A stretch of 64,000 bases of DNA, taken from Thioalkalivibrio denitrificans (lineage in GTDB: Bacteria > Pseudomonadota > Gammaproteobacteria > Ectothiorhodospirales > Ectothiorhodospiraceae). The notes under the pieces were generated by a model, which was not told the DNA's origin, searched no databases, and worked only from the letters and a program-made list of their open reading frames with translations. The stretch is taken from assembly GCF_002000365.1 (NCBI RefSeq), contig NZ_MVBK01000057.1, positions 18,974 through 82,973 of the forward strand. The letters run 5' to 3'. Within the stretch, counting starts at the first letter, position 1. The number at the start of each line of letters is the position of its first letter. Made by a program: the position numbers and the translations under genes. Positions 7,801 to 62,367 of the stretch are shown here, one piece after another.

Positions 7801-7908
7801 ATTCAAGATTCAAGATTCAAGATTCAAGATTCAAGATTCAAGATTCAAGATTCAAAGGTAATGGGTCGCCCGCTTTTCCCTTGAATCTTGAATTTTGAAC
7901 CTTGAATT
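7801..7908. repeat. ATTCAAG heptamer hairpin between lptG and an RDD gene
   Basis: The left arm is seven perfect ATTCAAG units (7801-7849) plus ATTCAAA. The right arm is four inverted units (TTGAATC, TTGAATT, TTGAACC, TTGAATT; 7881-7908) after a 24-base loop. The arms are unequal (8 against 4 units). The element fills the gap between two convergent genes and could act as a bidirectional terminator or RNA hairpin. Related elements with the same unit are at 10248 and 47937. Confidence 0.95.
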
Positions 7909-10247: not shown

Positions 10248-10335
10248 ATTCAAGATTCAAGATTCAAGATTCAAAGGGTCCCCTCGATAGATCCACGTGC
10301 CCTTCCCTTGAATCTTGAATCTTGAATCTTGAATA
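10248..10335. repeat. ATTCAAG heptamer hairpin between PilZ gene and ackA
   Basis: The left arm is three perfect ATTCAAG units plus ATTCAAA (10248-10275). The right arm is three TTGAATC units plus TTGAATA (10308-10335). The 32-base loop is unrelated to the loop of the sister copy at 7801. Arms pair almost perfectly over 28 bases. The element ends 37 bases before the ackA start codon. Confidence 0.95.
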
Positions 10336-23001: not shown

Positions 23002-23070
23002 GTAGGTCGGGCTTCAGCCCGACGCGGGCGGCCTCGACAGGCACCTCTGTCGGGCTGAAGCCCGACCTAC
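23002..23070. repeat. REP-like nested palindrome (GTAGGTCGGGCTTCAGCCCGAC)
   Basis: A 22-base unit at 23002-23023 is repeated exactly in inverted form at 23049-23070. Each unit is itself palindromic (GTCGGGCTTCAGCCCGAC), so the site can form a cruciform or cloverleaf. It lies between two convergent genes. This resembles dispersed REP elements moved by TnpA-REP transposases; no such gene is in the window. Confidence 0.92.
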
Positions 23071-26087: not shown

Positions 26088-26140
26088 TTCGATAGTCCGC
26101 GAATGAACGCGAATCAACCCAACCTGATGGTCTGCAAAGC

Positions 26141-26242
26141 TAACCGCGAAGGGCGCGAAGGTATGCGCGAAGGACGCAAGGGGTATTTTGAAACGAGATT
26201 GTCCTCGCGTCCTTTGCGCATACCTTCGCGCCCTTCGCGTTA
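26141..26242. repeat. Hairpin of 9-11-base units (GCGAAGG type) before arsR
   Basis: The left arm 26141-26180 has repeated GCGAAGG cores (CGCGAAGGGCGCGAAGG...). The right arm 26203-26242 is its inverse with one single-base indel and two substitutions. The loop is 22 bases. Outside it, GCGAATCAAC at about 26110 and GTTGATTCGCG at about 26265 add a second, outer, partial arm. It separates the phosphatase gene from the ars operon and could act as a terminator. Confidence 0.9.
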
Positions 26243-26334
26243 AGGCTTTTGATTCTCCATTTGCGTTGATTCGCGCACCGATTCTTCCCGGGCCACCGTC
26301 ACCGCTTTCCTGCTGCTGCAATACTGGACATCAG

Positions 26335-30404: not shown

Positions 30405-30491
30405 GTAGGTTGGGGTGAGCAAGGCGAACCCCAACAAGGGTGATCGGGATGCCCCGGCACGTTGGGGTTCGCGTCGCTCACCCCAACCTAC
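30405..30491. repeat. REP-like inverted pair (GTAGGTTGGGGTGAGC)
   Basis: A 31-base unit at 30405-30435 and its inverse at 30461-30491, differing at two positions, with a 25-base loop. Each unit carries a smaller palindrome (TTGGGGT ... ACCCCAA). It lies between convergent rhodanese and FKBP genes and could end both transcripts. Confidence 0.92.
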
Positions 30492-40506: not shown

Positions 40507-41831
40507 CCGGTGTCCCGCGTCTGTGCCTGATCGAGGACGACCCCATCATGGGCGAATCCCTGTGCGATCGTTTCGAACTGGAAGGCTTCAGCGTGCAATG
40601 GCTGCAAAGCGTGGCCGAGGCCCGCCCGGCCCTTCAGCGGGGCGGGTGTGACGCGGTCATCAGCGACATCCGGCTGGCGGACGGGCAGGGTGATGCGCTG
40701 TTCCAGGAGATGATGGAAGCGGGCAGCGTCACGTGCCCCTGGCTGTTCATCACCGGCTACGGCGCGGTGGACCGGGCCGTGGCCCTGCTCAAGCTGGGCG
40801 CCACCGATTACATCACCAAGCCCTTCGATCTGGATGCCCTGGTTGAGAAACTCCGCGGGCTGATCGTGCAGGGCGGTGAGACGGGCGGTGCGCAGACGGC
40901 CCGGCTCGGGGTTTCTCCCGCCATGCGCCGGGTGGAATCGCTGCTTCCGCGCCTGGCCACCCAGGCCGGCACGGTACTGCTTACCGGTGAGTCGGGGGTG
41001 GGCAAGGAGGCCGTGGCCCGGGAACTGCATCGTCTGGACCCGGCCACCGCTGATCAGCCTTTCGTGGCGGTCAATTGCGGCGGGCTGACCGAGACCCTGC
41101 TGGAGGCGGAACTCTTCGGTCACGAAAAGGGCGCCTTCACCGGTGCCGTGCGCTCCCGGGCCGGTGTGTTCGAGCAGGCCCACGGAGGCACGCTGCTGCT
41201 GGACGAAGTGGGGGACATGCCCATGGTGATGCAGATCAAGCTGCTGCGCGCTATCCAGGACCGGCAGGTGGTGCGTGTCGGTGGCGATCGACCCATCCCC
41301 GTCAACCTGCGCCTGATCTGCGCCACCCACCGGGATCTCCTGCAGATGGTGCGGGAAGGCAGCTTCCGGGAGGACCTCTACTACCGCATCCACGTGATCC
41401 ACGTGCGCATCCCTCCCTTGCGCGAGCGGCGCGAGGATATTCTGTGGCTGGCGGGCCGGTTCCTGGACGAGTATGCCCGGGCACGCAACGAGCCCCGCAA
41501 GCAACTCACTGCCGCCGCCGAGCAGGCGCTGCTGCGCCATCCCTGGCCCGGCAACATCCGCGAACTCAGGCACGCCATCGAGCGGGCCTGCATTCTGAGC
41601 ACCGGGCCGCTGATCCAGGCAGAGACCGTGTTCGACGAGCCAGGGACGGAACCCGGGACCGAGCCCGACGAGCGGGGGCGCCTGACGCATTACCTCAAGG
41701 CCTGCGAGGCGGACTACATCCGCCGTGCCCTGGATCTGCACGACGGCCACATCGGCCATACCGCCGCGAACCTCGGCATCAGCCGGAAGAACCTCTGGGA
41801 GCGCATGAAGCGCCTTGGAATGTCTGATTAG
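40503..41831 (+). CDS. arxR: ArxR, sigma54-dependent response regulator
   Basis: A 442-residue NtrC-class activator. Receiver domain with Asp55 (AVISDIRLADG) and Lys in YITKPFDL; AAA+ domain with Walker A TGESGVGKEAVA (161-172) and the sigma54-contact loop GAFTGA (210-215); and a Fis-type helix-turn-helix (HTAANLGISRKNLWERMKRLG). It overlaps arxS by ATGA. Targets are likely the palindromes at 37984 and 38026. Confidence 0.92.
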   Translation: MTGVPRLCLIEDDPIMGESLCDRFELEGFSVQWLQSVAEARPALQRGGCDAVISDIRLADGQGDALFQEMMEAGSVTCPWLFITGYGAVDRAVALLKLGATDYITKPFDLDALVEKLRGLIVQGGETGGAQTARLGVSPAMRRVESLLPRLATQAGTVLLTGESGVGKEAVARELHRLDPATADQPFVAVNCGGLTETLLEAELFGHEKGAFTGAVRSRAGVFEQAHGGTLLLDEVGDMPMVMQIKLLRAIQDRQVVRVGGDRPIPVNLRLICATHRDLLQMVREGSFREDLYYRIHVIHVRIPPLRERREDILWLAGRFLDEYARARNEPRKQLTAAAEQALLRHPWPGNIRELRHAIERACILSTGPLIQAETVFDEPGTEPGTEPDERGRLTHYLKACEADYIRRALDLHDGHIGHTAANLGISRKNLWERMKRLGMSD

Positions 41832-41943
41832 TCCGTTGTCAGTGGTCCGTTGTCAGTTGTTGGAAACCCCTTTGACAGCCCCTCTGCCGGAATCAGACTC
41901 TGACAACTGACAACTGACAACTGACAACTGACAACTGACAACT
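41830..41943. repeat. Heptamer hairpin (GACAACT type) between arxR and mobA
   Basis: The left arm is degenerate inverted units (AGTCCGT, TGTCAGT, GGTCCGT, TGTCAGT, TGTTGGA) from 41830, beginning within the arxR stop codon. The right arm is six perfect GACAACT units (41902-41943) ending two bases before the mobA stop codon. It separates two convergent genes. Confidence 0.93.
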
Positions 41944-41945
41944 GA

Positions 41946-42530
41946 CTACGAACCACATGACTGATGTGAAGCCCACTCCTCGGGCGTATTGAGGTTCACG
42001 AATCCCTCGGGACAGTCGGAGAAATCCACTTCCACGTGCGGCTGGTCCCGCATCCAGCGGCCGACTGCCAGTCGTCCGGCGGCAATGTCGGCATCGAGGG
42101 TGGGCAGCAGGTCGCGGTGCACCAGTGCGAACAGGGGCTGGATGCGTTGGCCGTCGTGGGGCAGGGCGATGCGGGCGTTCGTTCCCCCGACCGCCCGCCA
42201 TAATCGTGCGACCAGGTCTGCAGGCAGGTTTGGCGTGTCACAGGGTGCACATTGGACCCAGTCGGTGGTGGCCAGGCGCAGCACGGCGGCCATGCCGGCC
42301 AGTGGGCCCTGAAAGTCCGCATGGTGGTCGCCGACGACAGGGTAACCGAGCCCGGCATAGGCGGAGCTGTTTCGGTTGGCGTTGATGATGATCTGTCCAA
42401 CCTGCGGCTTCAGCGCGCGAATGACATGCAGGATCATGGGTGTACCGGCCAGCGGCAGCAGGCCCTTGTCTTCTCCGCCCATGCGCGAGCCGCGCCCGCC
42501 CGCCAATACGGCACCGGTGATGTGGGACAT
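41946..42530 (-). CDS. mobA: Molybdenum cofactor guanylyltransferase MobA
   Basis: Attaches GMP to Mo-molybdopterin to make MGD, the cofactor form ArxA uses. The 194-residue product has the nucleotidyltransferase signature GAVLAGGRGSRMGGEDKGLLPLAG, ADFQGPLAGMAA and CAPCDTPNLP. Start taken at MSHITGAV (42530); ATGs at 42551 and 42587 are possible. It is convergent with arxR. Confidence 0.95.
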   Translation of the reverse strand: MSHITGAVLAGGRGSRMGGEDKGLLPLAGTPMILHVIRALKPQVGQIIINANRNSSAYAGLGYPVVGDHHADFQGPLAGMAAVLRLATTDWVQCAPCDTPNLPADLVARLWRAVGGTNARIALPHDGQRIQPLFALVHRDLLPTLDADIAAGRLAVGRWMRDQPHVEVDFSDCPEGFVNLNTPEEWASHQSCGS

Positions 42531-44110: not shown

Positions 44111-44856
44111 TTGCCTATCTGGTACCCGTGGCCCTGGTTGTGGGCCTGCTGATCATGTCCATCCGGATCCTTCCGGAGTATGAGCGCGGCGTGATCTTCT
44201 TCCTCGGCAGGTTCCAGGCGGTGAAAGGCCCGGGCCTGATCATCGTGATCCCGGGCATTCAACAGATGGTGCGTGTGGACCTGCGCATCATCACCCTGGA
44301 CGTGCCCAGCCAGGACGTGATCTCCCAGGACAACGTCACCGTGCGGGTCAACGCGGTGCTCTACTTCCGGGTGATGGATTCCGCCAAGGCGATCATCCAG
44401 GTGGAGGACTACTACGCCGCCACCAGCCAGCTGGCCCAGACCACGCTGCGTTCGGTGCTGGGCAAGCACGATCTCGACGAGATGCTCTCCGAGCGCGACA
44501 AGCTCAACGCCGATATCCAGGAGATTCTCGATGCCCAGACCGACGCCTGGGGCATCAAGGTGACCAACGTCGAGATCAAGCACGTGGACCTCAACGAAAG
44601 CATGATCCGCGCCATTGCCCGCCAGGCCGAGGCCGAGCGTGAACGGCGCGCCAAGGTCATCCATGCGGAGGGCGAACTGCAGGCTGCGGAGAAGCTCTCC
44701 GAGGCCGCCGAGATCATCGCCCGCCACCCCGCGGCACTGCAGCTCCGTTACCTGCAGACCATGAACGACATGTCCAATAAGACCGGCTCCTCGTCCATCT
44801 TCTTCCCGCTGCCCATGGAATTGACGGAGATATTCAAGGCGCTCTCGTCGAAGTGA
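44107..44856 (+). CDS. Slipin (SPFH/stomatin family)
   Basis: A 249-residue stomatin-like membrane scaffold. N-terminal membrane segment ([18 protein letters not shown]), then the SPFH domain ([47 protein letters not shown]) and a C-terminal coiled coil ([26 protein letters not shown]). It pairs with NfeD, whose gene overlaps by ATGA. Confidence 0.94.
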
Positions 44857-44965
44857 GAAGTGTGAAGTGTGAATTGAGAAGTTGGAAGGGAGCCATGTGA
44901 AGAGGAGCTTGAGAAGTCGGATTTGGATGTTTTCCCGCTTCCCAATTCCAACTTCCCACCTCCTT
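44853..44965. repeat. Heptamer hairpin (GTGTGAA / CTTCCCA type) between slipin gene and xerD
   Basis: The left arm GTGAGAA, GTGTGAA, GTGTGAA, TTGAGAA, GTTGGAA starts inside the slipin stop codon. The right arm CTTCCCA, ATTCCAA, CTTCCCA ends just before xerD. Degenerate, but strictly 7-base in both arms. Confidence 0.8.
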
Positions 44966-45906: not shown

Positions 45907-45969
45907 GACCACTGACCACTGACCGCTGACCGCTGACCGCTGAATGCTGAATGCTGAATGCTGAAAGCT
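45907..45969. repeat. One-armed heptamer array with block-wise variants after xerD
   Basis: Nine 7-base units in a row: GACCACT x2, GACCGCT x3, GAATGCT x3, GAAAGCT. Variants occur in blocks, as expected if the array grows by duplication of neighbouring units. No inverted arm is found before dsbC. Confidence 0.9.
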
Positions 45970-46107: not shown

Positions 46108-46833
46108 ATGAAAATGACCCGACTCGTGTTCATGCCGGTGTTGCTGCTGGCCCTCTTGTCGCTGGCCGTGGCCGCATCCGAGAAGCACGTGCGCGAGCGC
46201 ATGCAGATGCTGATCCCGGGGGCGGTGCCCGATGCCGTTGTTGAAACCCCGGTGGACGGTGTCTACGAAGTACGCTACGGCACGCAGATTCTGTACATGA
46301 GCGCGGACGGAAAGTACGTGTTCCAGGGCAATCTGGTGGATACCGAGACCCGTACCAACCTCACGGAAAGCAGCCGTACATTGGCCAGGCAACAGGTGGT
46401 TGCGGATCTGGACGAATCACGCATGGTCATCTACGGGGCCAATGGCGAGACCCGACATGTGGTGACCGTGTTCACCGACGCGGACTGCACGTTCTGCCGC
46501 CGCATGCACGCGGAAATGCCCGAGATCAACGATCTGGGTATCACCATCCGCTATCTGCTCTTCCCCCGCACGGGCGTGGACTCCCCCAGCTATCGCAAGG
46601 CGGTGAGCATCTGGTGCGCCGATGATCAGCATCACGCCATGGACGAGGCGAAGCTGGGACGCGAGATACCGGCGAAGAGCTGCGACAATCCTGTGCAGGA
46701 ACACATGGCGCTGGGCGAGCAGCTGGGCGTGCAGGGCACCCCGGCCCTGGTCCTGGAAAATGGTCAGATGCTGCCCGGCTACCGCCCGGTGAATGAACTG
46801 GCTGCGATTCTGGAGCAGCTCAGCAAGAGATAA
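46108..46833 (+). CDS. dsbC: Thiol:disulfide isomerase DsbC
   Basis: Periplasmic disulfide isomerase. The 241-residue product has a signal peptide ending near residue 23 (LLLALLSLAVAA), an N-terminal dimerisation domain, and a thioredoxin-fold domain with active site Cys127-Thr-Phe-Cys130 and cis-proline in VQGTPALVL; a second cysteine pair lies at SIWCADDQ and AKSCDN, as in E. coli. Located after xerD. Confidence 0.94.
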   Translation: MKMTRLVFMPVLLLALLSLAVAASEKHVRERMQMLIPGAVPDAVVETPVDGVYEVRYGTQILYMSADGKYVFQGNLVDTETRTNLTESSRTLARQQVVADLDESRMVIYGANGETRHVVTVFTDADCTFCRRMHAEMPEINDLGITIRYLLFPRTGVDSPSYRKAVSIWCADDQHHAMDEAKLGREIPAKSCDNPVQEHMALGEQLGVQGTPALVLENGQMLPGYRPVNELAAILEQLSKR

Positions 46834-47007
46834 GGATGAAGGTTGAAGGATGAAGGATGAAGGCTGAATGGAAGCCAATTCCAACTCACCCTTCATGCTT
46901 TTCCCGTAGGAGCCCGGCCCTCCGGGCGAACATTCCCACGGAGTTTCGTTCGCCCGGAGGGCCGGGCTCCTACGGGGGAGCGTCCGGGTTAATTCAACCT
47001 TCAACCT
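46833..47007. repeat. Heptamer hairpin (AGGATGA type) interrupted by a REP palindrome
   Basis: The left arm is AGGATGA, AGGTTGA, AGGATGA x2, AGGCTGA (46833-46867). The right arm is a shorter TCAACCT x2 (46994-47007). Between them sits a complete GTAGGAGCCCGGCC palindrome, so one mobile or repeated element appears nested inside another. It spans the gap between convergent dsbC and the CnoX-like gene. Confidence 0.8.
46903..46976. repeat. REP-like palindrome (GTAGGAGCCCGGCC type)
   Basis: Perfect 28-base inverted repeat: 46903-46930 and 46949-46976, with an 18-base loop. Lies inside a heptamer hairpin between convergent genes. Confidence 0.93.
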
Positions 47008-47009
47008 TT

Positions 47010-47870
47010 TCAGTACAACAGGCTCACCATCTTCCTCCGGTATTCCTTCACCAGCGGGTGCTGCGCGCCGAGTAACTCGAAGGCGGCCAGCAGGCCTTTG
47101 TGGCCGGCATCGTCCCCGTACTTGCGGTGTTTCTGCATGAGGCGCAGGAGCAGGGGCAGCGCCGTCTCGTAATCCTCCGCGAGGATCTTCGCCGCGGCCA
47201 CCCGGTGCATGGCTTCGGGGTTGTCGCCCGATTCCGCCGCCGCCTCCAGTTGCCCGAGTTCATCCCCCCGCGCCGCCACGCGGGCAAACCGGACCTGCGC
47301 CTCCAGGCGCCGCACGGCCTCGTCCTGGTGCAGGTCCATGGGCAGTGTCTTGAGGGTCTCGTCCGCTTCGTCCGCGCGCCCCAACGCCACCAGTGCCCGC
47401 GCGATGTCGATCTTGAGGGCCTGGTTGTCGGGATCGCTCTCGAACGCCGCCTGCAGACCGGCCAGAGCCCCCTCGGCATCGCCTGCGCGCAGCTTTTCCA
47501 GGGCGGCGCTGCGCAGATTGTCCGACTCACGGGGGAGGTGACGCTCCAGCAGAGTGCGGATGGCGGACTCGGGCTGAACGCCCATGAACTGGTCCACGGG
47601 CTTTCCATGGCGGAAGACCATCACCGTGGGCAGGCTGCGTATGCCGAACTGCGCGGCCAGCGCCTGCTGCTGATCGGAGTTCACCTTGGCCAGGATCACG
47701 CGCCCCGCAAAGTCCTCAACGATCTTCGCCAGCACCGGCATCAGTATCCGGCAGGGCTGGCACCAGTCCGCCCAGAAGTCCACCAGCACCGGCCGTTCCC
47801 GCGACCCCTCCAACACCACCTCGGTGAAGTTGCTCTGGGTGACGTCGATGATGAAAGGGGAATCGGGCAT
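47010..47870 (-). CDS. cnoX: CnoX/YbbN-type thioredoxin with TPR tail
   Basis: A 286-residue protein with an N-terminal thioredoxin domain (VLVDFWADWCQPCRILMPVL; Cys37/Cys40) and a C-terminal helical TPR-like region (residues about 115-286). It is a cytoplasmic chaperedoxin of the CnoX/YbbN family, but keeps the full WCQPC active site, unlike E. coli CnoX with SxxC. That implies real redox activity. Confidence 0.9.
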   Translation of the reverse strand: MPDSPFIIDVTQSNFTEVVLEGSRERPVLVDFWADWCQPCRILMPVLAKIVEDFAGRVILAKVNSDQQQALAAQFGIRSLPTVMVFRHGKPVDQFMGVQPESAIRTLLERHLPRESDNLRSAALEKLRAGDAEGALAGLQAAFESDPDNQALKIDIARALVALGRADEADETLKTLPMDLHQDEAVRRLEAQVRFARVAARGDELGQLEAAAESGDNPEAMHRVAAAKILAEDYETALPLLLRLMQKHRKYGDDAGHKGLLAAFELLGAQHPLVKEYRRKMVSLLY

Positions 47871-47936
47871 CGGGGGGGTTCCTCCTGGCTTGAGATGTAA
47901 TGGGTCGATTCAGACAAGTTGGGATGGTTTGGGGAT

Positions 47937-48029
47937 GATTCAAGATTCAATATTCAAGATTCAAAGGGAAGGTCCAGGACCAATCACAGAGCATCACCCC
48001 TTTGAATCTTGAATATTGAATCTTGAATC
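47937..48029. repeat. ATTCAAG-family heptamer hairpin with identical 32-nt arms
   Basis: Left arm 47937-47968 and right arm 47998-48029 are exact inverse copies over 32 bases, including a shared variant unit (AAT in place of AAG). The loop is 29 bases. It lies between the AddA-type helicase gene and the CnoX-like gene, both on the minus strand. Confidence 0.97.
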
Positions 48030-48032
48030 CGT

Positions 48033-51000
48033 TCACACCAGCACCCGGATGTGCGTAAACAGCAGCCTGCATTCCACCTCGCGTCCCGGCCAGAGGCGCC
48101 GGACGCCCTCCGCATACAGCACCATGGGTTCGGCGTAGGCCTGTGCCACCCGACGGGCCTGCTGCTCGTCGGCCACCCGGTGGGTCTTGTAGTCCACGAG
48201 GAGAATGTGTTCGGGCGTTACGCGGAGCCGATCGATGATGCCGTACACGGTACGGCCGTCCGGGGCCGTGTACTGCAGCGGCACTTCGCAGTAATCGAGA
48301 CTCCGATCCCGGGGTTCGAACACGTCTGCGAGCGCCGGCGCGGCGAGAACGGCCCGTGCCTCGGCGAGCCAGTCTGCCAGTTCCGGGTGGGCAGGGTCCA
48401 GACGCAGTTCCAGGGCAAGCCTGCGTCGCAATGCATCGTCGTCATCGTCCGATCCCCCTGCCAGCCACTCGAGCAGGCGGTGAATGCCGATGCCCCGCAG
48501 ACGGGCATCCTCGTCGCCGTCACCGGCCTCCCATGTGTCGGTGGCCGCCCGACTCGGGGCGATCTCCACCTCCGGTGCGCCGCAGGCAAGACGCGAAGCG
48601 AGTTCCGGAGGCACCGGTGCGGGCGGCGGCCGTTCCCTGACCGTCGCCGCCACCGGGGGCGGCGTGCCCACCTCGTGGGCCCAGGTGCCGTCGTCCATGA
48701 AGCGGCCCGGTACGGGCGCGGTTGCGGCCTCCGGGGCAAGGGCCTCGCGGATACGGGCATACCATCCGCCGTTGCTGCGACCGCTGGCCGAGATGATCAG
48801 CACCTGCCGGGCCCGGGTGAGCGCCACATAAAGCAGGTTGGCGTCCTCGCGATCCCGGATTTCCCGGACGCCGGCGGCGCGGGCCGCGGTGGTCCGGTCC
48901 AGGTCGGCGGCCCTGGGCAGCAACTGCATCAACCGGGGGCGGTCCGCCCCCGCGGGCCAGTCCACGAGGGTACCGTAGGCCTGCCTGTCCTGGGGCACGG
49001 CGGCCGCGTCGGCCAGAAAGACCACCGGGGCTTCCAGCCCCTTGGCGGCGTGGATGGTCATGATGCGCACGCGTTCGGCCGAGCCGCGCACCGGCGGGGT
49101 GTCCGGGGCGCCCTCGGCCTGATCGCGCAGGCCGCGCAGCCGGGCCAGAAAGTGCACCAGGCTCGGATAGCGGCCGCTGTCCACCTCCAGGGCCAGTTCC
49201 AGAAAGCGCACCAGGCTGGCCAGTACCGTGGGCACCCGGTCCGGGCGGCTGCCGGCTGCATAGCGGGCCAGCACATTGCCGTCCAGAAAGATGCGATCCA
49301 GGAGATCGTGCACCGGCAGGGCCCCGCTCCAGGTGCGCCACAGGGTCAGCTTTTCCGCGGCGCGTCTCAGGGGGTGCGTTTCAGGCAGGCCGGGTGCCAG
49401 TGCCTCCAGCCGCTCGTGCCAGGGTCCGCGCCCCGCCTCGGCGAGGCGTTCCAGTTCCTCGTGCCCGATACTGAACAGCGGTGAGCGCAGCACCTGGGCC
49501 AGGGCCAGATCGTCGTGGGGGGTGATCAGCACCCGCAGCAGGGCCTCAAGGTCCTGGATCTCCAGGTACTCCAGCAAGGCGCCCTTCGCCGCACTGAGGT
49601 AGGGGATCCCGGCATCGCGCAAGGCATCTTCGATGGCCTGCACGTGGGTTCGTCTGCGCACCAGGATGGTGATGTCCGCGTAACCCACGGGCCGCGCCGT
49701 CTCGCCATGGCCGACCACCAGCCCCTCGGCAACCATGGACCGGATGCGCGCCGCGATACGCGCTCCCTCCCGGGCATGCAGGGTCTCACCGGTGTCGGGG
49801 CGGGGGGTCGTGAGGGGGTTGCGCAGGCCCTCGAGGGGCGGCGTCTCGTCGGGGTCATCGGGCTCGATCAGGGGCCACACTTCCACGCGACCCCACAGGT
49901 CCTCGAGGTGGGTGCCGTGTTCCTGGAAGTCCTCCAGGGCGGATCGCAGGGACGGGGAGACCGTGAATACCCGGTTGACGAAATCCATCACCGCAGGGCT
50001 GGAGCGCCACGACCGGTCCAGGTGCTCCGGACTTCCGCCCAGGCGATCCCGGATCCACTCTGCCGCGATGACCTGCAGACGGGGGTCGGCCCGCCGGAAA
50101 CTGTAGATGGACTGCTTGGTGTCGCCCACCAGAAACACGCTGCGCCCCTGGCGGTCGCCGTGGGCGGCCAGTTCCTCCAGCAACGGCAGGATCAGTCGCC
50201 ACTGGGTGGGGTTGGTGTCCTGGAACTCGTCGATGAGCAGGTGTTCGATGCGGCTGTCGAGCCGGTACTGCACCCACAGGGCATGGTCGCCGTGATTGAG
50301 CAACCGGTAGGCGCGCCATTCGAGGTCGGTGAAGTCCAGGGTACGCAGTTCCGCCTTGATGTTGCCGTAATGCGCCAGGTAGCGCGTGCCGGCGGTCAGC
50401 CACGCCTCATTGAGCTGCAGGCTGTGCTGGCGCGCGAGCCGGTCCAGGGCGTCCAGGATGTGCTCGCACAGCTGCCCGTGCAGTTCCAGGAATCGCGCCT
50501 CGGCCTCGGGGCCGCCCAGGCGGCCCGCCCGCGCCTTGGTGGGGTTGCGCGTGCGCGGCGCGCCATCCTGTCGCAGCAGCGCGCGGCAGGCGGACTCGAA
50601 TATGGCATGCGCCTCATTCCCGGCCAGGGCATCGGCCAGCGCCTGTCCAAGCGCGGCTTCCCGGGCGGTGTCCTTTCCCAGCAGGGCGGCGAACTCGGCC
50701 AGTTCGGCGCGGACCCGGTCGGTCAGGAAATCGGCACGGAAATCGGCGTCGGGGCTGACGTCCAGCGATTCCGCGATGCGGGAGCGGGCAAATTCCGCCG
50801 GGTGATCCTCATGTTCCGTCCATGCCCACCAGTCCTCCCGGTGGGTGAGGAAGCCATCCAGGGCCTTGCGTGCGCTGTCCACACCGTTGAGGGCGGTCAG
50901 CAGGTGTTCCAGTGCCCCGGCCAGTTCGCCATCAGGTGTCCGGGTGGCCTCGCTCACCAGGGCGTCCCAGGCTCGGTCCCGGATGTCGGCGGTGTTCTCG

Positions 51001-51404
51001 ACCAGTTCGAAACCCGGCGGTACGTCGGCTTCCAGGGGAAACCGGGCCAGCAGATCCTGGCAGAAGGCATGGAAGGTGGTGGTCCTCACGGGGCGCTCGG
51101 CCAGCAGGGTGGTCTCGAAGAGCCGCCGGGCCCGTTCCCGTACGGCCGGTTCCACCGTCACCCCCATGCGTGCCAGTTCAGCGTCCAGGGCGTTGTCGTC
51201 CAGTGTCTGCCAGTGAAGCAGGCGTTCCGTGAGGCGGCTTTGCATCTCCCCGGCCGCCATGCGGGTAAAGGTGACCGCCAGGATGCCCTCCGCCCGGGCG
51301 CCCGCCAGCAGCAGGCGCAGGATGCGGGTCACCAGCAGGTAGGTCTTGCCGGAGCCGGCCGAGGCGAAGACGGAGATGTTGAGTTCGGGATCTGTAGCTG
51401 ACAT
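48033..51404 (-). CDS. addA: AddA-type UvrD helicase/nuclease
   Basis: A 1123-residue helicase-nuclease of the AddA/RecB group for double-strand-break processing. Walker A in FASAGSGKTYLL near residue 16, helicase motifs ILAVTFTRMAA, LLIDEFQDTNPTQW, FLVGDTKQSIYSFRRADP, MTIHAAKGLEAPVVFLAD and VALTRARQVLII. The C-terminus has a PD-(D/E)xK nuclease core (YGIIDRLRVTPEHILLVDYKTHR). No addB gene adjoins it. An in-frame ATG at 51434 would lie inside the tandem repeat upstream; 51404 is chosen (MSATDPELN). No ribosome site is visible at either. Confidence 0.92.
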   Translation of the reverse strand: MSATDPELNISVFASAGSGKTYLLVTRILRLLLAGARAEGILAVTFTRMAAGEMQSRLTERLLHWQTLDDNALDAELARMGVTVEPAVRERARRLFETTLLAERPVRTTTFHAFCQDLLARFPLEADVPPGFELVENTADIRDRAWDALVSEATRTPDGELAGALEHLLTALNGVDSARKALDGFLTHREDWWAWTEHEDHPAEFARSRIAESLDVSPDADFRADFLTDRVRAELAEFAALLGKDTAREAALGQALADALAGNEAHAIFESACRALLRQDGAPRTRNPTKARAGRLGGPEAEARFLELHGQLCEHILDALDRLARQHSLQLNEAWLTAGTRYLAHYGNIKAELRTLDFTDLEWRAYRLLNHGDHALWVQYRLDSRIEHLLIDEFQDTNPTQWRLILPLLEELAAHGDRQGRSVFLVGDTKQSIYSFRRADPRLQVIAAEWIRDRLGGSPEHLDRSWRSSPAVMDFVNRVFTVSPSLRSALEDFQEHGTHLEDLWGRVEVWPLIEPDDPDETPPLEGLRNPLTTPRPDTGETLHAREGARIAARIRSMVAEGLVVGHGETARPVGYADITILVRRRTHVQAIEDALRDAGIPYLSAAKGALLEYLEIQDLEALLRVLITPHDDLALAQVLRSPLFSIGHEELERLAEAGRGPWHERLEALAPGLPETHPLRRAAEKLTLWRTWSGALPVHDLLDRIFLDGNVLARYAAGSRPDRVPTVLASLVRFLELALEVDSGRYPSLVHFLARLRGLRDQAEGAPDTPPVRGSAERVRIMTIHAAKGLEAPVVFLADAAAVPQDRQAYGTLVDWPAGADRPRLMQLLPRAADLDRTTAARAAGVREIRDREDANLLYVALTRARQVLIISASGRSNGGWYARIREALAPEAATAPVPGRFMDDGTWAHEVGTPPPVAATVRERPPPAPVPPELASRLACGAPEVEIAPSRAATDTWEAGDGDEDARLRGIGIHRLLEWLAGGSDDDDDALRRRLALELRLDPAHPELADWLAEARAVLAAPALADVFEPRDRSLDYCEVPLQYTAPDGRTVYGIIDRLRVTPEHILLVDYKTHRVADEQQARRVAQAYAEPMVLYAEGVRRLWPGREVECRLLFTHIRVLV

Positions 51405-51405
51405 C

Positions 51406-51447
51406 AGTGGCAAGTGGCAAGTGGCAAGTGGCAAGGTAAAGATACAG
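51406..51447. repeat. AGTGGCA heptamer array between addA and parE
   Basis: Four perfect AGTGGCA units (51406-51433) followed by AGGTAAA and GATACAG. It begins one base before the addA start codon. Further loose 7-base units (CCTTGTA, TCCTGTA) run from 51478 toward parE. It separates divergent genes and so replaces both leaders. Confidence 0.85.
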
Positions 51448-53452: not shown

Positions 53453-53489
53453 CTGGCATTTCGACGGTGATTGGCGTAGGTGATGGAAC

Positions 53490-53582
53490 GCGTAGGTCGC
53501 AGAGGCGCGGAGAACGCAGAGAGTTTCGTCTTTCCTAAATCAAACTCCGCGTCCTCTGCGCCTCTGCGTCCTCCGCGTCAAC
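53490..53582. repeat. Hairpin of GCAGAGGCGCGGAG-type units after parE
   Basis: The left arm around 53490-53525 (GCAGAGGCGCGGAGAACGCAGAGA) and the right arm 53545-53582 (CTCCGCGTCCTCTGCGCCTCTGCG) are imperfect inverse copies built of 8-9-base units. The gap between parE and the HAD gene holds nothing else. Confidence 0.8.
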
Positions 53583-54562: not shown

Positions 54563-54653
54563 GACAGGATTAACAGGATTTTTGTGGATCTACAGGATCA
54601 ATTCCTAATGCTTTAAATTCCTGTGAATCCTCAAAAATCCTGTTAATCCTGTC
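54563..54653. repeat. AACAGGATT-type hairpin before parC
   Basis: A perfect 22-base inverted repeat (54563-54584 and 54632-54653; GACAGGATTAACAGGATTTT...), extended inward by a weaker match. Units are 8-9 bases (AACAGGATT). It sits between the HAD gene and parC. Confidence 0.95.
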
Positions 54654-56925: not shown

Positions 56926-56940
56926 AGACCCGAAAGGTCA

Positions 56941-57070
56941 GCCACAGAGGGCACAGAGGTCACAGAGGAAATCCGTAAGCGCCACCGGCGGAAGGTCCGA
57001 ACCGCTGGCTATCTACCGCAACATCCAACGAAGTGGCCTTTATCTCTGTGTCCTCTGTGCCCTCTGTGGC
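56941..57070. repeat. CACAGAGG-type hairpin between parC and htpX
   Basis: The left arm GCCACAGAGGGCACAGAGG(TCACAGAGG) at 56941-56968 and the right arm 57044-57070 are inverse with one mismatch in 27 bases, from 9-base units. The 75-base loop has no gene. The whole parC-htpX gap (265 bases) holds this element and the htpX leader. Confidence 0.93.
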
Positions 57071-57190
57071 TTAAGGCCTTTCCTGGCAGTCTCCCCCGTC
57101 CCCGGACACAGGACGAAGGTTGAATTTTTCACCTTTGACCCTATCTAATATCGCGGTTCCGGATTCTGAACTGAATACATCGGAGAGACG

Positions 57191-58172: not shown

Positions 58173-58367
58173 ATGGCCAACAAGCCGCATCCAACTGAGC
58201 CCGAGCTCATCGCCTGCGAGATCTGCCTGCGCGAATTGCCATCCCACGAGTCCCACAGCGTGGAGGAAGATGAGTACGTGCAGCATTTCTGTGGCCTCGA
58301 GTGCTACGACCTCTGGCGCCGCGGGCTGATCAAGCTGGACGATGACAAGGCTGATGATAGTCAGTAG
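58173..58367 (+). CDS. DUF3330-like small zinc-binding protein
   Basis: A 64-residue protein with a probable metal-binding core CEICLRELP ... HFCGLECYDLW, a pattern I recognise from DUF3330 proteins. Its last codons (ADDSQ) and stop codon run into the AGTCAGT repeat, so the C-terminus has been set by the array. Function unknown. Confidence 0.75.
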   Translation: MANKPHPTEPELIACEICLRELPSHESHSVEEDEYVQHFCGLECYDLWRRGLIKLDDDKADDSQ

Positions 58368-58445
58368 TCAGTAGTCAGTAGTCAGTAGTCAGTAGTCAGT
58401 TGTCCGTTGTCGGTCTGCAACTGACCACTGACGAGGGACAACTGA
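58359..58445. repeat. AGTCAGT heptamer array overlapping two gene ends
   Basis: Six perfect AGTCAGT units (58359-58400), then TGTCCGT and TGTCGGT, and a degenerate inverted part (CAACTGA, CCACTGA, CGAGGGA, CAACTGA; 58418-58445). It overlaps the 3' end of the DUF3330 gene and supplies the last residues and stop codon of tesA from the opposite strand. Confidence 0.93.
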
Positions 58446-59061
58446 CCATCCCGTCCAGCACCTCCCAGACGTTTTCCAGCATCCGCTCTTGCGCTTCGGC
58501 GGTGGGGTGGATACCGTCGGCCTGCATGAGCGAGCGGTCTTCGGCGACACCGTCCAGAAAGAACGGCACCAGGGGCACGTCAAACTCCCGGGCCACCTGG
58601 TGATAGATGTCGTGGAACCTCTCGGTGAAATGGCTGCCGTAGTTGGGAGGCAGGTGCATTCCCAGCAGCAACACGTCGGCGCCATGGTCCAGGCTCAGGC
58701 GGACCAGTTGGGCGAGGTTGTCGCGCATCTCAGCCAGCATCTGGTTCGGATGCACGCCCCGAAGGCCGTCATTGCCTCCCAGTTCGATGATCACCAGTGC
58801 CGGGTCATGGCGTTCCAGGGCCCGGGGGAGGCGAGTGAGCGCGCCACGGGTGGTTTCACCTGAGACGCTGGCATTGACCACCTGCCAGGGCAAATCGTCC
58901 TGGGCCAGGCGGCGTTCCAGCAGGGCAACCCAACCGTCGCGTTCGGCGAAGCCGTGAGCGGTGCTCAGGCTGTCGCCCAGTACCATCAGCGTGGGACGTT
59001 CGCCGGAGGCGAGGCCCGGTAGCGGAATCAGCAGGATCAGCAACAGGAGAAGGCGTTTCAT
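58396..59061 (-). CDS. tesA: Multifunctional esterase/lysophospholipase TesA
   Basis: Periplasmic SGNH hydrolase. The 221-residue product has a signal (LLLLLILLIPLPGLASG), block I LMVLGDSLS with Ser, block II ASVSGETTRGAL, block III ELGGNDGLRG and block V ADGIHPTAEAQ with Asp and His. The last 15 residues (SCPSSVVSCRPTTDN) and the stop codon come from the heptamer array, not from the ancestral gene. It starts at ATG 59061, overlapping the divergent ybbA start by two bases. Confidence 0.92.
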   Translation of the reverse strand: MKRLLLLLILLIPLPGLASGERPTLMVLGDSLSTAHGFAERDGWVALLERRLAQDDLPWQVVNASVSGETTRGALTRLPRALERHDPALVIIELGGNDGLRGVHPNQMLAEMRDNLAQLVRLSLDHGADVLLLGMHLPPNYGSHFTERFHDIYHQVAREFDVPLVPFFLDGVAEDRSLMQADGIHPTAEAQERMLENVWEVLDGMVSCPSSVVSCRPTTDN

Positions 59062-62250: not shown

Positions 62251-62255
62251 GCAGA

Positions 62256-62358
62256 AGGATGAAGGTGGAAGGATGAAGGATGAATCAAAGGCCGCGGGGT
62301 GGCGCAGCCGCCCTTTGTCTTTGGATTTCCCCTTGTATCTTGGCTCTTGTATCTTGGC
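62256..62358. repeat. Mixed heptamer arrays between ybbP and relA
   Basis: The left array is AGGATGA, AGGTGGA, AGGATGA x2 (62256-62283). The right array is CCTTGTA, TCTTGGC, TCTTGTA, TCTTGGC (62331-62358). The two are not inverse copies of one another but keep the 7-base period. The right array ends 9 bases before the relA start, and no ribosome site is seen. Confidence 0.8.
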
Positions 62359-62367
62359 TCTGTTTTT

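Follow-up and report, generated by a model that had tools for sequence, protein, structure and literature searches.

Quasipalindromes are the closest described counterpart of the hairpins analyzed here. Replication template switching homogenizes their arms and inverts their spacers (Ripley model; Abraham and Hazkani-Covo 2021, PMC8604942), and a part in making and preserving RNA stems has been proposed for it (Monttinen and Loytynoja 2022, PMC8794818). Reported inverted spacers measure 2–5 bp in yeast (PMC8604942) and mostly 4, up to 7–8, nt in rRNA loops (PMC8794818). The hairpins of Thioalkalivibrio share with quasipalindromes the homogenized arms, the paired changes and the inverted loops, but their arms consist of 20–40 bp of tandem 7- or 9-mers, their inverted loops measure 12 to over 100 nt, and ≈ 13% of the loops that can be read point opposite ways in two close species. 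The mechanism is known; size and frequency look unusual here.

Several other systems bear a partial likeness. Intergenic heptamer repeats, among them the TAACTGA repeats of Beggiatoaceae (PMC4679880) and long simple sequence repeats built from 7-nt units, likewise have seven-base units and are scattered over distant phyla, but the TAACTGA sets are direct repeats that mostly precede start codons closely and almost never form inverted pairs (PMC4679880), whereas the Thioalkalivibrio heptads form facing pairs just after stop codons. The multicopy sites of Geobacter metallireducens resemble them in being tandem hepta- or octanucleotides paired on opposite strands at variable spacing; in the sections of PMC2700814 that deal with these sites, the unit sequences differ from ours, the sites are described as predicted regulator binding sites, and arm co-evolution is not discussed. 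REP, BIME and REPIN sequences, which are associated with RAYT transposases, are also dispersed extragenic hairpins, but the heptad hairpins have tandem heptad arms, unique loops and no GTAG/CGTC tag. Intrinsic terminators, finally, place a hairpin right after the stop codon; the hairpin studied here differs from them in its A + T-rich stem, its long loop and the lack of a T-run. A paper search yielded no publication on the repeat sequence itself.

The window, a stretch of 64,000 nt from Thioalkalivibrio denitrificans, carries this hairpin between two co-directional genes (Table 1). The initial annotation had reported arms identical over 32 nt, and this was confirmed: the 32-nt arms are 100% complementary and enclose a loop of 29 nt. 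RNA folding gave z-scores of − 8.2 and − 8.3 for the two strands and was equaled by none of 200 shuffled sequences. The hairpin far exceeds chance. It lies 3 nt from the stop codon of the AddA-like gene. Because the ORF of this gene opens within a period-7 array, translation probably starts at the ATG at ≈ 51401. An intrinsic terminator was rejected, since no T-run or terminator-like match was found at the hairpin. Rfam returned only microRNA models with scores below gathering for the site, owing to the long stem, and the GTAG/CGTC tetranucleotide was absent from the palindrome foot (sequence 47930–48035).

Table 1. The hairpin and its neighboring genes (positions in the window)
Feature	Position	Strand	Remarks
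Left arm	47937–47968	+	Units GATTCAA, GATTCAA, TATTCAA, GATTCAA, then AGGG
Loop	47969–47997	none	29 nt
Right arm	47998–48029	−	Exact reverse complement of the left arm
AddA-like gene	48033–51434	−	UvrD-type helicase and PD-(D/E)XK nuclease domain; upstream of the hairpin
CnoX/YbbN-like gene	47010–47870	−	Thioredoxin domain and TPR repeats; downstream of the hairpin, co-directional with the AddA-like gene

Our own caller found at least four period-7 hairpins in the window, and TRF added further period-7 arrays. Besides the hairpin studied here, period-7 arrays and hairpins with other units lie at 7801–7907, 10248–10334, 41829–41948, 44850–44882, 45907–45969, 51406–51435, 58358–58448 and 62254–62361; the units across these eight stretches are ATTCAAG, GTTGTCA, GAAGTGA, GACCGCT/GCTGAAT, AGTGGCA, TAGTCAG and GAAGGAT, and several of the stretches adjoin gene ends. 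Hairpins with units of ≈ 9 bp (26140–26244, 53488–53578, 54563–54653 and 56940–57071; units GCGCGAAGG, GCGCAGAGG, ACAGGATTA and CACAGAGGG) make up a second size class, which behaved like the heptads in the sister species, loop flips included. A nested element at 46832–47008 contains a REP-like perfect 29-bp hairpin (46903–46976) amid two repeat stretches, an AAGGATG-type array on its left and a TTCAACC-type stretch on its right. GTAGG-tagged palindromes of REP type occur at 23002–23070 and 30405–30491, and the genome has eight matches to Y1 (RAYT-like) transposase genes.

A two-armed ATTCAAN pattern had forward matches in all five Thioalkalivibrio genomes (28 in G000, 18 in G001, 61 in G004, 67 in G003 and 4 in G002, overlapping starts included) but was absent from the 42 other family genomes; the reversed pattern, used as a control, had no matches. 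A sample of 398 genomes of the phylum gave no match to the ATTCAAN pattern beyond the window's own. Matches in the genome collections came from Thioalkalivibrio sulfidiphilus ALJ17, a Thioalkalivibrio MAG (G001), and scattered MAGs of Thiohalomonas, Nitrospirae, Thermoanaerobaculia, Bacteroidetes, Verrucomicrobia and others. One groundwater Nitrospirae MAG, taxonomically remote from Thioalkalivibrio, carried at least five two-armed ATTCAAN hairpins (L121, L135, L137, L163 and L164).

Tandem 7-nt units were present between genes at many loci of a single genome. Counted by unit length, there were 66 arrays with 7-bp units, 34 with 6-bp, 5 with 8-bp and 1 with 9-bp units; a length of 7 is conspicuous among the longer units. 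Nearly all ATTCAAN arrays with at least three units (40 of 44) had a facing partner. Two of the other four had a degenerate partner and two were broken by one common inserted element: an element with the end CACTAGTGTCCGGTTAA splits the hairpins at G003 C11:97674 and C19:278 (L178 and L075), which accounts for the apparent single arms there. Pairing mostly halted at the repeat edge, 45 of 52 hairpins extending by at most one base. Fold-back copying into the flanks was rejected, since the excess of longer extensions was slight and came from few independent sites. The loops of heptad hairpins were practically without further copies in the sequence examined, whereas MITE-like hairpins had such copies. 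These unique loops led us to reject a mobile copy that includes the loop; no conserved body of the kind expected of a MITE was common to the heptad hairpins, and no clean empty site from which a target-site duplication could be read was found.

The dynamics of these elements became visible in a comparison of ≈ 0.52 Mb of G003 with the matching stretches of G004. Hairpins were found in both genomes, orthologous pairs (mean identity of flanks of up to 500 nt, 95%) were compared, and loop orientation was read by local alignment. Among 105 orthologous pairs, the loop had the same orientation in 54 and was inverted in 8, 37 elements were replaced or unrecognizable, 4 were absent and 2 ambiguous. 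Thus, 8 of the 62 readable loops (≈ 13%) were inverted between colinear flanks. BLAST of ≈ 1 kb around three of the inversions returned opposite-strand matches of 82, 168 and 84 bp (99, 99 and 96% identity) inside colinear orthologs, and the flip at C9:9685 was seen by direct reading. In a scan of 220,743 14-mers for micro-inversions (segments present only as reverse complement near the expected place), long clusters occurred at hairpins only; the single long cluster off our hairpin list itself carries inverted ends. No single sequence-specific site accounts for the flips, since they hit the unrelated ATTCAAN, GGAAGTG, ACAGGATT and GCAGAG classes as well as one MITE-like element.

Some individual loci in this comparison deserve mention. 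A 9-mer hairpin is nested in the loop of another (L202 2022–2189 vs L201 2022–2189), and its inner part of ≈ 100 bp is inverted as a whole between the two species. G003 C5:56516, C12:63488, C5:60389 and C11:81303 have a different hairpin at the same intergenic place in G004, with flanks 93–98% identical, so that whole elements have been replaced; at three of these loci the unit class has changed as well. A MITE-like element with ends CCCGAATGTTTCATGAA occurs at G003 C12:76862, where TTAA stands on both flanks, and at C9:48241 (L069 and L072); it is absent in G004.

The reading that we favor, and consider fairly probable, is that the hairpins formed by facing heptad arrays at the 3′ ends of genes are shaped by replication template switching together with slippage and turnover. 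The site belongs to a large and dispersed group of 3′-end hairpins built from facing 7-bp (or 9-bp) arrays. Where the DNA is single-stranded at the replication fork, its arms would pair into a hairpin; a switch of the nascent strand within one strand would copy one arm from the other and homogenize them, whereas a switch between strands would return the loop inverted. Array length would change as whole units slip, and whole elements are frequently replaced, so that the perfect arms in the window probably represent a recently made or re-copied state and are no proof of constant correction. The agent would then be template switching and not an enzyme, with correction acting intermittently. The confinement of flips to hairpins, their occurrence in several unrelated unit classes and some paired arm changes fit template switching. 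In its favor count also the arm agreement above shuffling in the window's genome, G003 and other taxa, the rarity of ATTCAAN arrays without a facing partner, and the equal numbers of G–U and A–C mismatches. Against it stand the scarcity of paired and the abundance of unpaired changes, the lack of excess arm agreement in G001 and G004, and the little sign of copying into flanks, where pairing mostly ends with the repeat. Since the inverted loops are far longer than the reported spacers, an enzyme or recombination has to be considered as well; ordinary recombination seems physically unlikely where two duplex arms of 30 bp flank a loop of 20 bp. The ExoI C-terminal domain (Exonuc_X-T_C) was not found in any of 47 genomes of the family, nor SbcD above cut-off in the genus. 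These absences may be permissive, not specific, and loss of SbcCD or ExoI as the specific cause was rejected, because most hairpin-free relatives also lack both.

How often arms change together was counted over 1099 pairs in 46 hairpins whose loops are conserved (G003 vs G004). There were three compensatory paired changes, for which 0.17 were expected (Poisson P ≈ 0.0008); one pair had changed on both sides non-compensatorily and 40 on one side only. At G003 C5:32089, for example, the outer unit went from A to G in the left and the right arm alike, and the loop was conserved. Paired, templated changes were thus shown for the hairpin set as a whole. Change per base was 2.2% in arms and 4.0% in loops, and ≈ 6% of arm pairs were mismatched.

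At the window's own site, the comparison gave a mixed picture. A TTCAA-class hairpin occupies the gap between the addA-like and thioredoxin–TPR genes in three congeners as well. In G003, the arms are perfect with the unit order T,G,A, as against G,T,G in the window; in G004, they are unlike at two units; in G002, they comprise about eleven units of GTTCAA type and differ strongly, the variable bases being mostly unmatched. Within each species, the unit class is common to both arms and the variable base not always. All four loops are mutually unrelated, so that neither a base-by-base history of the site nor its loop orientation can be read. Strains with freely differing arms had been named in the initial annotation as the observation that would speak against correction, and G004 and G002 largely present it here.

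These data bear on a rival account, in which elements are often made anew with identical arms that then drift independently, with no correction. The unrelated loops at the site, the 40 unpaired as against 3 paired changes, and the 37 of 105 elements replaced or unrecognizable all speak in its favor. At 14 of these 37 sites, the unit class had changed between flanks otherwise ≈ 95% identical, although some of the 14 are losses or longer insertions and not clean swaps. The proportion of mismatched pairs would be roughly that expected from such turnover. Since whole elements are often replaced, youth can explain much of the arm identity, and correction is probably occasional. As the sole explanation, however, youth is somewhat unlikely: it leaves unexplained both the loop inversions at conserved loops and the three paired changes.

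The perfect arms at one site could also reflect chance, since with few unit types some hairpins will match fully. We compared the variable base of the units between arms, shuffling right arms among the hairpins of one genome. Full agreement over the shared units was seen in 11 of 19 hairpins of the window's genome. Both arms at the site do carry TATTCAA at the same place, as had been noted, yet this is weak evidence by itself: among comparable hairpins of that genome, one of seven rare (T or C) variable units was matched, with 0.27 expected (P = 0.26). The assertion that independent drift would not produce such a match therefore fails at this site, rare-unit matches not being in excess. As an explanation of this one site, chance is nevertheless unlikely; overall agreement in the window's genome was 29 of 38 (76%) vs 56% after shuffling (P = 0.002; 19 hairpins). 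Agreement was 32 of 54 (59%) vs 46% in G003 (P = 0.013) and 47% vs 32% in other taxa (P = 0.011); G001 and G004 showed none above shuffling. A moderate excess of arm agreement exists in some genomes. The initial interpretation, that the arms must be corrected against each other or copied through a hairpin, is partly supported: it was right in kind, given the agreement in the window's genome and G003 and the slow and imperfect exchange seen in the sister species (inverted loops and paired changes), and overstated in its "must", given the preponderance of single-arm changes and two of four congeners without excess agreement.

Selection on RNA is a further candidate, the hairpin acting as a terminator or 3′-end stabilizer whose pairing is kept by compensatory selection. 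Genes were called with our simple codon-usage caller. The hairpins lay in 33 convergent, 60 co-directional and 6 divergent gaps (baseline 56, 193 and 71), divergent gaps thus making up 6 of 99 for hairpins vs 71 of 320 for the baseline; in co-directional gaps, the hairpins lay at a median of 12 nt past the upstream stop and 62 nt ahead of the next start. This strong 3′-end location, the very stable folds and the slower change in arms than in loops would suit selection on RNA. We judge it quite improbable as the cause of the pattern, however, because the site has neither T-run nor terminator-like match, arm mismatches read as sense RNA showed no G–U preference (25 G–U vs 25 A–C), and selection for pairing does not invert loops. 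The hairpins may mark or protect transcript 3′ ends, or have no function.

An RAYT-like or other transposase, or an invertase, that inserts, flips and replaces the elements is very unlikely: each of the five Thioalkalivibrio genomes has Y1 transposase genes, REP-like hairpins lie within the window and element classes switch at the same place, but the near-unique heptad loops speak against whole copying from a master, the GTAG/CGTC foot that marks REPs (PMC3733652) is missing from the arms, Y1 genes are equally common in hairpin-free family members and do not track the hairpins, and inversions strike several unrelated unit classes. Should a dedicated activity nonetheless write facing 7- or 9-bp arrays at gene 3′ ends, flip their loops and swap their classes, for which we see little chance, these slots would be an actively edited layer of 3′-end hairpins and not passive replication errors.

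Heptad hairpins at gene 3′ ends with frequent loop inversion and class change are a more interesting result than the single site. Compensatory pairs in stems are usually taken as proof of selection on RNA. Many natural hairpins with flips and arm exchange would offer a direct measure of the share of DNA copying in that compensatory signal, and such a genome would let unit slippage, arm correction and loop inversion be told apart. For Thioalkalivibrio, the set means that heptamer arrays can occur as facing pairs at gene ends and not just as direct repeats.
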